Shown: positions 31,528-52,383 of the stretch, piece by piece | Position numbering within the stretch: the first letter of the stretch is position 1 | Layout: the number at the start of each line of letters is the position of its first letter | Assembly (NCBI RefSeq): GCF_000407445.1 | Contig: NZ_ASWB01000001.1 | Span: 1,116,001 to 1,180,000, forward strand | Length of the DNA stretch: 64,000 nt | Direction of reading: 5' to 3' | Source of the DNA: Enterococcus moraviensis ATCC BAA-383 | Lineage (GTDB): Bacteria > Bacillota > Bacilli > Lactobacillales > Enterococcaceae | The notes under the pieces: model-generated | Told to the model about the DNA's origin: nothing | The model's input: only the letters and a program-made list of their open reading frames with translations | Database searches by the model: none | Position numbers and translations under genes: made by a program

Positions 31528-33063
31528 TTAAATCATTTCCTCAATATCGATCACACGATCTGTAATATCTGCATAAAATTCCTCCTCATGAGAAACAATC
31601 ACAATCGTACCTTTAAATTGCTGAATCGCTTGACGTAAGCTCTCTTTGGCAGCCGCATCGATGTGATTCGTTGGTTCGTCTAGGAAAATAATGTTGCTTG
31701 TGTCCATTGTCAGCTCGCTTAATTTTACCTTCGTCTGCTCGCCTCCACTTAATAAACGCAATGATTGATTCACTAATTTATCTGGCAACCCACATTTCGC
31801 TAAATAAGTGCGGATTTCTTTGACCGTTTTTTTAGGAAAGCAATCACTTAGATACGCTATCGGGGTCAAATAATCATTATCCCAAATTAAATCTTGTGAG
31901 AAATAAGCAATTTTTGTATTTGCTGGATATTGATAGTCACCGTTGATTGGTTTGATTTTCCCTGTCAACGTTTTGATCAATGTTGATTTTCCTATACCAT
32001 TAAAGCCTTTGATTGCCACCTTTTCTCCACTATGAACAGATAAATTGATTGGTGCTAATAATGGTTCAGTATAGCCAATCGTTAATTCATCTGTAATCAG
32101 CGCTAAACTGGCCACAATTGGCTGATAAGGAAACTGTATTTGTGGTTTCATTAAGCTGCCTGGAGGTGCCATTCGTTCCACTCGATCTAATTGTTTCTGA
32201 CGACTTTTCGCCATGGTAGCACGATTCCCAGCTTTGTATTTACGAATATACGCTTCAGCTTTTTCAATTTTTGCTTGTTGCGCATGATATTGTTTTAAGT
32301 AACTCTCTTTGTTTTGTTCTTTTTGCGCAAAGGATTTCTCGACATTTCCTGTATATCTCGTTAATTTACCAAATTCAATATCACAAATACAATTTGTTAC
32401 GGCATTTAAAAAGTGATAATCATGGGAAACCAAAATAAACGTACCATCGAAATCATTCAAATAATTGATGAGCCATTGAATATGTGTATCATCCAAATAG
32501 TTTGTTGGTTCATCCAATAATAAAACATCCGGCTCTTCTAAAAGAAGTTTTGCTAGAATGACCTTTGATCTTTGCCCTCCACTTAGTTCATTCATTAGTC
32601 GATCCAATCCAATCGCTTCAATTCCTAAGCCATTAGCCAAATCATTGATGATCGTATCAATTTGATAAAAATCACTTTCGTCTAATTGCGTTTGCAAATT
32701 TCCTGCTCGTTCAAGTAATTTATCTTCACCGGTCTCACTATATTCCGCATATAACTCATTGATTTTATTTTCGATTTCATATAATGGCGTGTATGCTTGG
32801 TGTAAAAACGCATTGATCGTACTATTTCCGATTACTTCCACATACTGGTCCAAATAACCGATTTTGGTGTTGTTTTGCCACGTAATACTACCATCATCTG
32901 CTAAAATTTCCCCTGTTAAAATCTTGACTAAGGTTGATTTGCCTACACCATTTTGTCCAGTTAAGCCCATGTGATCCCCTTTATTGACACGAAGCGATGC
33001 ATCTTCATACAGAATTTTTTCACCAAAACGTTGGGTTAGGTGTTCGATTGTTAATAAACTCAT
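31528..33063 (-). CDS. ABC-F family ribosome-associated ATPase
   Basis: 511 residues, two ABC ATPase domains in one chain and no membrane segment, so an ABC-F protein. Domain 1: GQNGVGKST (near 37), LSGGQRSKV, VLLLDEPTNYLD. The inter-domain P-site tRNA-interaction linker is long, charged and helical (KYKAGNRATMAKSRQKQLDRVERMAPP, near 265). Domain 2: GFNGIGKST (near 350), LLSGGEQTKVKL, IIFLDEPTNHID. Members rescue stalled ribosomes or protect them from antibiotics. Which of these applies cannot be read from sequence, but the leader-peptide attenuator upstream (33229-33494) is the arrangement known from drug-inducible resistance ABC-F genes. Confidence 0.85.
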   Translation of the reverse strand: MSLLTIEHLTQRFGEKILYEDASLRVNKGDHMGLTGQNGVGKSTLVKILTGEILADDGSITWQNNTKIGYLDQYVEVIGNSTINAFLHQAYTPLYEIENKINELYAEYSETGEDKLLERAGNLQTQLDESDFYQIDTIINDLANGLGIEAIGLDRLMNELSGGQRSKVILAKLLLEEPDVLLLDEPTNYLDDTHIQWLINYLNDFDGTFILVSHDYHFLNAVTNCICDIEFGKLTRYTGNVEKSFAQKEQNKESYLKQYHAQQAKIEKAEAYIRKYKAGNRATMAKSRQKQLDRVERMAPPGSLMKPQIQFPYQPIVASLALITDELTIGYTEPLLAPINLSVHSGEKVAIKGFNGIGKSTLIKTLTGKIKPINGDYQYPANTKIAYFSQDLIWDNDYLTPIAYLSDCFPKKTVKEIRTYLAKCGLPDKLVNQSLRLLSGGEQTKVKLSELTMDTSNIIFLDEPTNHIDAAAKESLRQAIQQFKGTIVIVSHEEEFYADITDRVIDIEEMI

Positions 33064-33228
33064 GTTTACGTCCTCTTTTCCATTCTCGCAAAGTTATTTT
33101 CTACTGTCTTTGCTTCTAGTTTATTGTAAATTGCCGTAATTATTTGTTTTTCTTCAAAAATTAACATTGCTTCACACAACGTTCTCGTACGTCGATTCGA
33201 AAGGTCTTTGTTTATTCAGACAAAAAAA

Positions 33229-33263
33229 CAAGCGATCAAATAGGTCCACCTACTTATCCCTTG
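33229..33263 (-). terminator. Leader (attenuator) terminator upstream of the ABC-F gene
   Basis: Minus strand CAAGGGATAAGTAGG / CCTATTTGATCGCTTG form a stem of about 14 pairs with one mismatch and one bulge around TGGA, followed directly by seven T (33222-33228). It lies about 165 bases before the ABC-F start codon, so it would stop transcription before the gene unless prevented. Confidence 0.75.
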
Positions 33264-33273
33264 TTAGTATCAA

Positions 33274-33306
33274 CAAAGGACAACGTACGAAACACGTTGT
33301 CCTTTG
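33274..33306 (-). promoter_or_regulatory. Hairpin sequestering the candidate antiterminator strand
   Basis: CAAAGGACAACGT / ACGTTGTCCTTTG, 13 perfect pairs and a seven-base loop. Its 5' strand overlaps GATCAAAGG (33301-33309), which can alternatively pair with CCTATTTGATC (33234-33244), the 3' arm of the terminator. The two states are mutually exclusive. Confidence 0.6.
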
Positions 33307-33395
33307 ATCAGCGCTATAAAAATCAGGATCATCGTCAACAGCAACACTAAATAAGACTACATTTTAGTCCCAAAAAATTTAGTATACATTTAGAC

Positions 33396-33438
33396 GATGA
33401 AGCGTTCATTCTATTAGGCTCCACAACAATGCTTCATC
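33396..33438 (-). promoter_or_regulatory. Leader-peptide hairpin of the ABC-F attenuator
   Basis: GATGAAGC (inside the leader ORF, codons 19-22) pairs with GCTTCATC after its stop codon. The 3' arm continues as TCATCGTC, which is also complementary to GACGATGA (33329-33336), giving an alternative pairing if a ribosome covers the first arm. Confidence 0.55.
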
Positions 33439-33494
33439 ACATTCATCTGTTGGGAGCTGCTTCTTTTCACAAATTTATCTGAAAGAAAAAACAT
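33414..33494 (-). CDS. 26-residue leader peptide upstream of the ABC-F gene (too short for routine ORF calling)
   Basis: ATG at 33494, four to five bases after GAAAGGTGATT, a good Shine-Dalgarno. The peptide begins MFFLSDKFVKR and ends MKHCCGA before TAA. It lies about 20 bases after the predicted transcription start and its last third overlaps the first attenuator hairpin. A translated leader whose stalling changes downstream folding is the expected design. No homologue known to me. Confidence 0.65.
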   Translation of the reverse strand: MFFLSDKFVKRSSSQQMNVMKHCCGA

Positions 33495-33520
33495 TCTTAA
33501 TCACCTTTCTTTACAAAAAT

Positions 33521-33548
33521 AGTTTACCATAATTGTTTTGAAAAGCAA
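33521..33548 (-). promoter_or_regulatory. Promoter of the ABC-F leader transcript
   Basis: TTGCTT (33543-33548), 16 bp, TAAACT (33521-33526) on the minus strand; start of transcription expected near 33513, just before the leader peptide RBS. Confidence 0.6.
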
Positions 33549-38388: not shown

Positions 38389-38680
38389 GCGTCCTCAAAT
38401 GTATAATGTTATACATTTGAGGACGCTTTTGCGTGCTACCACCTCTATTTGTTATCTACTCACATAGATAACCTCATCAAGTACGGCGATCGATGATCGC
38501 TTATACTCTAGTACTATAACGGGTACACCCGTCGCTGTCTTATGAATAATTCACTCGAAGCGCTGCTCAATGGCCATTTTCTAGATGTCGTTTATCGCTT
38601 GTTTTCAGCTACCCAAGCTCTCTGTTAGATATCGTTTCATCTGTACTTTCCATCTCATTGCTTTATTTGTTTCATTTAAT
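38389..38680 (-). ncRNA. T-box leader 1 of the met operon (proximal, probably tRNA-Met)
   Basis: T-box sequence AGAGGTGGTAGCACGC at 38431-38446, a slightly unusual form with an extra G. The terminator hairpin at 38389-38425 has arms GCGTCCTCAAATGTATAA/TTATACATTTGAGGACGC and a T run. Stem I includes GAGAGCTTGGGTAG and the run GAAAATGGCC, where ATG (complement of 38575-38577) is the likely specifier. The same GAARATGGCC context occurs in leader 2. 5' limit approximate. Confidence 0.8.
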
Positions 38681-38727: not shown

Positions 38728-39003
38728 AAAAAGCCCTCTGCCAGCTTATGCTAGTAAAGGGCGAATAATCGCGGTACCACCTTTTTTTTAAAGTAATCAT
38801 CATTACTTTTCTTAGACCAAGTCTTATAACTTGTCGCTTTGATAACGGGTGCTTTCCCGAAACTGCTTACTTATCAACAGCTTATCCTCATGAGGCCATC
38901 TTCAACTCTTATGCGCTTATCTCTTTTCACCAACCGAGACTCTCTTATAAAGCACGTCCAAATTTACTCTTCTCTTCAACGGACTGTTATTCTTTTGTTG
39001 TTA
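38728..39003 (-). ncRNA. T-box leader 2 of the met operon (distal, probably tRNA-Met)
   Basis: Classic AAGGTGGTACCGCG at 38770-38783 and terminator 38733-38762 (GCCCT...AGGGC with inner CTAGC/GCT pairing) plus T run. Stem I has AGAGAAGAGTA, a helix GTGCTT/AAGCGC, and GAAGATGGCC with ATG at 38897-38899 as candidate specifier. Together with leader 1 it forms a serial double T-box: both must read through for expression. Confidence 0.85.
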
Positions 39004-52035: not shown

Positions 52036-52237
52036 AATATCCATATCCTACTTTCTCGATTGTCTTAGGTTACTACTCAAGAAAAAAAGCTGACAAATAA
52101 AAAAATTTTTGCATTCTTATACTAAAAAATAGGTTAAATTCTTTTATTCTCAATTCTTTCAATTTTCTTGTTCCTTCATCATAGGTTTCTATTCTGCGTA
52201 GTTGGATTTTTGTTATAATCTTACAATTATTTTTTTC

Positions 52238-52330
52238 TCCAACTTGTAGAGTGCAGACCCTAGAGCCATCCGCCGAAATTTTCGATAAGCTCTTTCCTCG
52301 TCACCTGATTGATCAGGCCTGGCGCTATCC
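52238..52330 (-). ncRNA. glmS leader: glmS ribozyme/riboswitch
   Basis: Reading the minus strand, the leader contains A-GCGCCAG (cleavage expected before the G complementary to 52325), GTGACGAGGA, TTATCGAAA and TTTCGGCGGATG in the order and spacing of the glmS ribozyme core. AGAGC and GGCTCT close the surrounding helix. The 3' part, GGGTCTGCACTCTACAAG, is shorter than in B. subtilis, suggesting a reduced P3/P4 region. GlcN6P-induced self-cleavage would lower glmS mRNA. It lies about 200 bases upstream of the start codon. 3' limit uncertain. Confidence 0.8.
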
Positions 52331-52383
52331 TAACATTGGTATAACTACCCTCCTTTTTATTTAGTTAAATAGAAACTGCACTA

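Follow-up and report, generated by a model that had tools for sequence, protein, structure and literature searches.

The orphan uup RNA as the probable core of a ribosome-mediated transcription attenuator ahead of an ABC-F gene in Enterococcus moraviensis

The window analysed here, a stretch of 64,000 nt from Enterococcus moraviensis ATCC BAA-383, carries on its minus strand a gene for an ABC-F protein that is preceded by a leader of about 290 nt, the elements of which were re-read from position 33548 to 33222 (Table 1). The initial annotation had described a promoter, a 26-codon open reading frame (ORF) with its own ribosome-binding site, a first hairpin between GATGAAGC and GCTTCATC, a 13-bp hairpin and a Rho-independent terminator in front of the ABC-F gene, and each of these could be located, although the promoter is weak. 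It was missed by a simple consensus scan, which returned two overlapping candidates at 33579-33550 and thereby no excess over shuffled sequence (mean 2.2); the TGn ahead of the -10 element is present in all 14 aligned leaders of the genus. The same scan also missed T2 and T3, both of which were found by a folding-based search. Elsewhere in the window, tandem T-box leaders (38416-38667 and 38754-38988, minus strand) lie upstream of an apparent methionine ABC importer operon (ORFs from 38347 to 35724), and a third T-box (2727-2933) and a glmS ribozyme (52190-52337) were observed.

Table 1. Elements of the ABC-F leader in the window, with the evidence on which each rests (positions count from the first letter of the window).
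Feature	Position	Strand	Description	Evidence
Weak promoter	33521..33548	-	TTGCTT, 16-nt spacer, extended -10 TGgTAAACT	Sequence; TGn in genus alignment
Shine-Dalgarno of leader ORF	33501..33510	-	AGAAAGGTGA	Sequence; comparison
Leader ORF	33414..33494	-	26 codons, MFFLSDKFVKRSSSQQMNVMKHCCGA, core KFVKRSSSQQ	Sequence, comparison, codon rates, stall scan
P1 (uup hairpin)	33418..33457	-	5' arm within leader ORF	Rfam RF03060 match 33418-33466
P1 loop element	33431..33438	-	GATGAAGC; partner 33396-33403 (P2), possible pseudoknot	71/78 loci; three-way co-change
P2 3' arm	33396..33403	-	GCTTCATC, overlapping P3 5' arm	Sequence, comparison
P3	33329..33400	-	TCATCGTC (33400-33393) with GACGATGA (33336-33329), around pause-like element	Partner-swap test
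Pause-like element	33345..33369	-	Hairpin GACTA/TAGTC, then TTATTT (NusG TTNTTT motif)	TTNTTT counts vs shuffles
T2	33274..33306	-	13-bp hairpin, U-tract weak here; first terminator in most relatives	Folding search
AT1 5' half (putative)	33423..33435	-	P1 loop/3' arm; partner 33289-33300 in T2	Segment scores, folding
AT1 3' half (putative)	33289..33300	-	In T2 5' arm and loop	Segment scores, folding
AT2 5' half (putative)	33272..33281	-	T2 3' arm; partner 33256-33265 in T3	Partner-swap test
AT2 3' half (putative)	33256..33265	-	T3 5' arm	Partner-swap test, folding
T3	33222..33265	-	Intrinsic terminator ahead of ABC-F gene, seven-T run	-16.0 kcal/mol, T-run
ABC-F gene	31528..33063	-	511 aa, clade with uup leaders	Profile scores, tree

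The leader is a member of the Rfam family RF03060 ("uup RNA"), whose model matches 33466-33418 on the minus strand with 43.6 bits and so passes the gathering score of 36.8. The family model spans 48 nt and a single hairpin, which is the same hairpin, with the same conserved loop, as in the window; here, however, the uup hairpin is one element among several, and its 5' part codes for the leader peptide. The motif was reportedly described by Weinberg in 2017. A 2024 review records it in Bacillota and Gammaproteobacteria, commonly with ATPases whose biochemical function is not known, places it in C. difficile around CD3359 and states that nothing further points to a riboswitch function (PMC11477304).

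Matches to RF03060 occur in 29 of 295 genomes at the level of the order (24 above the cut-off), in 12 of 398 at that of the class (all 12 above it) and in 4 of 398 at that of the phylum (all 4 above it), these three genome sets overlapping. The genome of the window itself holds two copies, the second of which (L041, G000:C4:353612-353660) scores 31.9 bits and lies under the cut-off; its leader peptide is MYVLYISTLSSLQLMFDEVLYGA and its ABC-F protein is 45% identical to that of the window. A pattern scan of named genomes revealed 75 loci in hosts that include Enterococcus, Paenibacillus, Bacillus, Lachnospiraceae, Tissierella, Holdemania, Klebsiella, Hafnia, Shewanella and Chromobacterium; a pattern scan of viral contigs gave none. 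One leader (L110), located before a MATE gene, comes from a contig titled as a Planctomycetota metagenome-assembled genome, for which mis-binning is possible. The 118 loci were reduced to 79 non-redundant leaders, 33 obtained by the covariance model and 46 by the pattern. Given that the pattern fixed GCTC..GATGAAGC.TTGT..GAGC, conservation of these letters is no evidence in the 46 loci; the ORF, the TTCATC arm, P3, the terminators, the T2 side of AT1, AT2 and the gene type all lie outside it. The comparisons below cover 78 leaders for P2 (L047 being too short downstream), 77 for P3, 63 of these 77 for TTNTTT (loci with a P3 score of at least 22 and close arms), 69 of the 77 for terminators, 61 of the 69 for AT1, 60 for stall folding, 50 for AT2 and 49 for the folding of the relay.

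An ORF running into the 5' arm of the uup hairpin is present in 78 of the 79 leaders and starts 14-62 nt upstream of the hairpin, L108 being the one without a leader ORF by the start/arm rule. A Shine-Dalgarno match of at least 5 nt precedes 59 of the 78 ORFs, and an ATG combined with such a match and a frame open through the arm was found in 53 of the 79 leaders, against a mean of 2.4 and a maximum of 7 in 200 shuffles. Among the loci found by the covariance model only, 32 of 33 have an ORF with a match of at least 4 nt. Of the 70 loci with a match of at least 4 nt, 60 have a start-to-arm spacing of 3n+1 and 10 one of 3n, and over all 78 ORFs these two frame classes comprise 66 and 12 leaders. 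In the larger class, dN/dS over 210 codon pairs, which are related and non-independent, is 0.38 in frame and 0.70 and 1.59 in the other two frames; codon pairs with a stop are absent in frame and number 304 and 312 in the others. The smaller class (12 leaders, 31 pairs) gives 0.46 in frame against 0.62 and 0.67. The leader ORF is under protein-level constraint and its translation is predicted from this comparison; it is kept across the enterococci and far beyond the genus.

The consensus of the larger class before and in the arm is K-[LF]-[VIT]-R-[RK]-x-[SCR]-S-x-Q. It is not invariant, as K is found in 39 of the 66 leaders, R/K in 39 and 51 at the two basic positions, S in 66 and Q in 57, and 61 leaders have R or K at one at least of the two basic positions. 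The 3n leaders read the arm in the other frame and retain an F-[VI]-R-K core (F in 12, V/I in 10, R in 12 and K in 10 of the 12). The ORFs range from 11 to 48 codons over the 78 loci, with 26 in the window, and the stop codon lies anywhere from 11 to 104 nt after the hairpin start; since its position is not conserved, the N-terminal core, and not the tail, is the part that is retained. Three leaders on Vibrionaceae plasmids (L120, L121 and L127; uup scores of 51.6-54.4 bits) precede ABC-F genes that are 45-47% identical to that of the window, and their cores, read by eye, are FVRRLNSVQ, FVRRVSSAH and FVRRLGSAQ. A peptide core made of a hydrophobic residue, then R/K, then S-x-Q appears to be common to the leaders of Bacillota and Proteobacteria.

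The ten pairs of P1 are kept in all 140 cells of the 14 genus leaders. The first hairpin of the initial annotation corresponds to P2, the pairing of the P1 loop (GATGAA) with TTCATC, for which all six pairs are possible in 71 of 78 loci, compared with 8.1 on average and at most 16 after shuffling; in a first, looser test, only 39 of the 78 loci had a P2 better than every one of 20 shuffles. In L004, L011, L021 and L026, changes in the loop are accompanied by changes in both its partner and the P3 arm. P2 is nearly absent from the equilibrium ensembles of the energy model, and as a candidate for the main antiterminator it was rejected, being conserved and yet outcompeted in folding by P3 and by P1 or AT1. 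It is regarded as a real pairing that may form an H-type pseudoknot with P1, which loops of 3-12 and 7-50 nt make sterically thinkable. P3 starts in the same TTCATC. This re-pairing of TCATCGTC with GACGATGA, already proposed by the first reading, proved to be conserved with sequences that differ between clades: 90 of 112 cells pair within the genus, and over 77 loci the own partner scores 25.9 as compared with 18.9 when partners are swapped between loci, outdoing at least 95% of the swaps in 39 of the 77.

TTNTTT is the pause motif of NusG. Of 63 loci, 47 have it within P3 (15.6 on average and 26 at most in shuffles), in many cases right after a small hairpin; among the four proteobacterial loci checked, it is absent from L060, L062 and L090, and L055 offers no more than a TTCTTT. 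Taken over P1, the small hairpin after it (P1b), P3, the pause hairpin and T2, 77 cells are changed on both sides versus 31.1 in shuffled alignments. Immediately behind the uup hairpin, all 22 aligned Bacillales leaders share a TAAT that is not a stop in their frame, and a GATTAA-like stretch before T2 is a candidate for further pairing with it.

With terminators called from folding plus a T-run, at least one intrinsic terminator follows P3 in 67 of 69 loci and two follow it in 50 of 69, a terminator-like hairpin being found within 30 nt past P3 in 61 of 69. Two pairings could keep these terminators from forming. One, termed AT1, is formed by the P1 3' arm together with the T2 5' arm; over 61 loci its mean score is 17.6, compared with 10.6-13.3 for other segments of the leader and 16.4 for swapped partners (p = 0.0018), the co-change being modest. 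Among 22 aligned Bacillales leaders, which are related and not independent, AT1 pairs in 98.3% of 175 cells, and since 95 of 500 shuffles equal the observed covariation, it is best described as a conserved complementarity and not as strong co-change. The other, AT2, links the two terminators, the T2 3' arm being matched by the T3 5' arm, and scores 24.1 as against 19.6 with swapped and 16.4 with shuffled partners (p = 7.5e-8, 50 loci), whereas two control combinations of T2 and T3 arms gave no excess over swaps in these 50 loci. The antiterminator drawn in the initial annotation was a different one, pairing GATCAAAGG of the 13-bp hairpin with the 3' arm of the terminator. It pairs in 88 of 98 cells inside the genus but over 50 loci scores 15.2 versus 14.4 for swapped partners (p = 0.13), so that this combination of T2 5' arm and T3 3' arm, which has no support outside the genus, was dropped. 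The leader-peptide attenuator read there thus stands with regard to its ORF, its alternative folds and its ABC-F gene, but not its antiterminator, and to call it a complete circuit was too strong, as the uup hairpin that competes with a stalled ribosome, the use of its 3' arm in AT1, the pause-like element and AT2 had been overlooked.

The effect of a stalled ribosome was modelled with an assumed footprint of -14 to +15 nt (30 nt covered) and with energies that are equilibrium values. When the RNA up to the T2 loop is free, P1 has a mean of 10.2 bp and AT1 reaches at least 4 bp in 7 of 60 leaders; with the P site at the conserved codon, it does so in 58 of 60. AT1 then averages 10.5 bp with the own T2 5' arm and 2.7 bp once that arm is shuffled; the unshuffled arm outdoes all ten shuffles in 36 of 60 leaders and at least nine in 52, and AT1 of at least 6 bp is predicted in 55 of 60 leaders with their own arm and in 19% of 600 folds with shuffled arms. 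A scan of stall positions around the conserved TCY/CTT codon gave AT1 of at least 6 bp in 32-58 of 60 leaders for codons -5 to +3. Upstream, the same level was reached in 4-7 of 36-60 leaders at codons -14 to -6, about equal to the 6 of 60 without a ribosome, and in 2 of 5 at -15; downstream, it was reached in 10 of 57 at +4, in no more than 3 at any codon from +5 to +14, in 4 of 34 at +15 and in 1 of 33 at +16. The stall window that would enable AT1 coincides with the conserved core, which in the peptide of the window means the codons around K-R-S-S-S-Q.

For RNA extending to the T3 loop, the free leader of the window is modelled with P1 at 11.4, T2 at 11.6, AT1 at 0 and AT2 at 2.5 bp, and the stalled one with P1 and T2 at 0, AT1 at 12.1 and AT2 at 14.0 bp. 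AT1 prevails over T2 in 18 of 49 stalled leaders, the window among them, versus 1 of 49 free ones. Once all of T3 is transcribed, AT1 prevails over T2 in 4 and AT2 over T3 in 2 of 49 stalled leaders. Since a fully transcribed leader is predicted at equilibrium to adopt the terminators, with or without a stalled ribosome, the switch would have to be kinetic, that is, dependent on timing.

The genes behind the 79 leaders comprise 63 ABC-F genes, 7 Mef-like MFS genes, 5 MATE genes, 2 class I methyltransferase genes and 2 that were not judged. The ABC-F protein of the window scores 367.4 bits against the ribosomal-protection-like NCBIfam family NF000355 (cut-off 380); four uup-linked relatives score 398.7 (L053), 379.8, 360.7 and 380.2, and two relatives not linked to uup score 400.5 and 382.2. 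It scores far below the class cut-offs for Vga, Lsa, Msr, Sal, OptrA and CplR. Its best PDB matches are YbiT (290.7 bits) and then PoxtA (263.6 bits), and it was placed neither with housekeeping YbiT nor with a named resistance class, the cut-offs of both kinds being missed. Several ABC-F subfamilies have been predicted to be resistance factors (PMC6723617). In a tree of 52 rows, which does not contain OptrA (L128), the second uup-linked ABC-F of this genome (L135) or L138, each without a complete ORF by the filter applied, the clade of the window protein is separate from VgaA, MsrE and PoxtA. The 37 uup-linked proteins, which include near-copies, require two label changes, compared with a mean of 13.1 and none as low in 500 shuffles, and a single row not linked to uup, from E. 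raffinosus, falls among them. The E. raffinosus megaplasmid (L119) carries the closest plasmid relative, with an ABC-F that is 61% identical and no uup match, where the uup leader may have been replaced by another leader.

Three of the MFS proteins were scanned and are Mef-related, at 188-210 bits with the MefA/MefB models and far under the cut-offs, and the 12 MFS proteins compared, those of Klebsiella and Hafnia included, share 54-94% mutual identity. L070, L075, L079, L083 and L094 have both genes, with the MFS gene behind the ABC-F gene. In Paenibacillus arenosi (L099), a leader 88.6% identical to that of L094 runs straight into an MFS gene (85%), as if the ABC-F gene between them had been lost. 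Further irregular loci were observed: L049 has an ABC-F remnant of 83 codons followed by an MFS gene, in Shimazuella alba (L032/L057) two ORFs take the place of a single ABC-F gene (160 and 364 aa in L057), and in Hazenella (L033/L070) the ABC-F ORF has 414 aa, with about 100 residues between the ATPase halves seemingly missing when read by eye.

A leader ORF with a ribosome-binding site, mutually exclusive hairpins and an intrinsic terminator are all found in this leader by comparison and in silico, and we consider that the uup RNA is probably the core of a ribosome-mediated transcription attenuator. The ORF, P1, P2, P3, the TTNTTT element, T2 and T3, AT2 and the complementarity of AT1 are predicted elements established by comparison, and the switch at the core codons is a modelled one. 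The mechanism proposed would run as follows. Without an inducer, the ribosome would traverse the leader ORF, P1 would form and sequester the antiterminator strand, RNA polymerase would halt briefly at the TTATTT within P3, and T2 and T3 would then fold and end transcription. A ribosome arrested on the core (hydrophobic, R/K, R/K, x, x, S, x, Q) would instead cover the 5' arm of P1, which acts in this scheme as an anti-antiterminator; its released 3' arm would take the 5' arm of T2 to form AT1, and the T2 3' arm, left unpartnered, would take the 5' arm of T3 to form AT2, allowing read-through into the ABC-F gene or, elsewhere, into the gene of an efflux pump or a methyltransferase. We infer that the arrest is brought about by a ribosome-targeting antibiotic, that the pause here depends on NusG and that the gene protects against that drug.

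Other explanations of the leader have to be weighed against this one. The Rfam class of uup is Cis-reg and the motif is treated among riboswitch-like motifs in the review cited above (PMC11477304), so that direct ligand binding by the RNA, with an incidental ORF, might be considered; the near-universal ORF with its in-frame constraint and the fact that P1 is a plain hairpin make this very unlikely. A second alternative, in which attenuation proceeds by P2/P3 and T3 alone, as first drawn, and P1 is a side structure, draws on the conservation of P2 and P3 and on the frequent pairing of the T2 5' arm with the T3 3' arm in the genus. That pairing fades into the level of swapped partners over the 50 loci, P1 is the very part that Rfam recognises and the modelled stall window matches the reach of P1, and we hold this scheme to be very unlikely as well.

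The peptide might also sense the charging of a single tRNA, the leader then being an amino-acid-starvation attenuator reading Arg, Ser or Cys codons. Runs of Lys-Arg-Ser-Ser-Ser and Cys-Cys in the window peptide would suit such a sensor, as would the Ser codon that is invariant in the 66 leaders of the larger class. In that class no residue upstream of the RNA-constrained arm is invariant, however, the basic columns also holding T, E, I or M; the second class has Ala-Leu-Asn at the same place, and the genes downstream encode ABC-F, MFS and MATE proteins and methyltransferases and not biosynthesis, which leaves starvation sensing very unlikely.

With regard to the drug that might arrest the ribosome in the attenuator proposed here, the core places basic residues side by side and keeps a small residue, Ser or Ala, ahead of x-Gln/Asn, which is reminiscent of the context rules of two groups of inhibitors. 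Chloramphenicol and linezolid follow a context rule of Ala, Ser or Thr before the last residue. For macrolides, a context rule of R/K-x-R/K has been described (PMC8298421). No drug can be named from the core, because the Ser and Gln codons sit in the RNA-constrained arm.

Comparable circuits are known. The vmlR leader of B. subtilis likewise has an upstream ORF within an anti-antiterminator hairpin, a UUAUUU pause hairpin, an intrinsic terminator and an ABC-F gene, but its ORF is of three codons (MIN) and lies in the bulge of SL-1 (PMC9226507), whereas the uup leaders have ORFs of 11 to 48 codons whose core lies internally, two terminators in 50 of 69 loci joined by the putative AT2, and modelled stalls near the start that are ineffective. 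Attenuation governed by stalling on an upstream ORF also regulates the ABC-F genes behind the cplR, vmlR2 and lsaA leaders, as dissected experimentally for cplR, and these ORFs (MR[I/M], MK[L/Q] and MAGN) have three to four codons (PMC10201436). Assignment of the uup leader to this short type (MIN, MRI, MAGN) was rejected on account of its length. A stall in the middle of the ORF together with NusG-dependent pausing, as proposed here, has been described for the tlrB leader (PMC6851288), where tylosin stalls the ribosome at RYR (PMC9226507); its peptide and its gene, which encodes a 23S rRNA methylase, differ from those of the uup leaders. A search of the open PMC literature found no paper linking the uup RNA with a leader peptide, and as far as that literature shows, the interpretation of the uup RNA as a leader-peptide attenuator is new, as are the relay proposed over two terminators and the occurrence of the leader ahead of four gene families.

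These results give an orphan Rfam motif a concrete proposed mechanism, part of its conserved sequence being predicted to code for a leader peptide, and the modelled stall window predicts poor induction by inhibitors that act directly after initiation. We tentatively suggest, as a wider reading that we find possible and somewhat doubtful, that the uup leader is a travelling sensor module, in which one core shared by Bacillota and Pseudomonadota would be arrested in mid-ORF by one class of ribosome-targeting compounds and a two-step antiterminator relay would pass the signal to a downstream protective gene, be it for a member of the distinct ABC-F clade or of the Mef-like MFS family partnered with it, for a MATE pump or for a methyltransferase. 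If true, this would explain the uup motif in general, and the genes behind it would be expected to share a natural inducer. The attenuator also ties an uncharacterised ABC-F clade, an MFS family, MATE pumps and a methyltransferase into what is likely to be one stress response.
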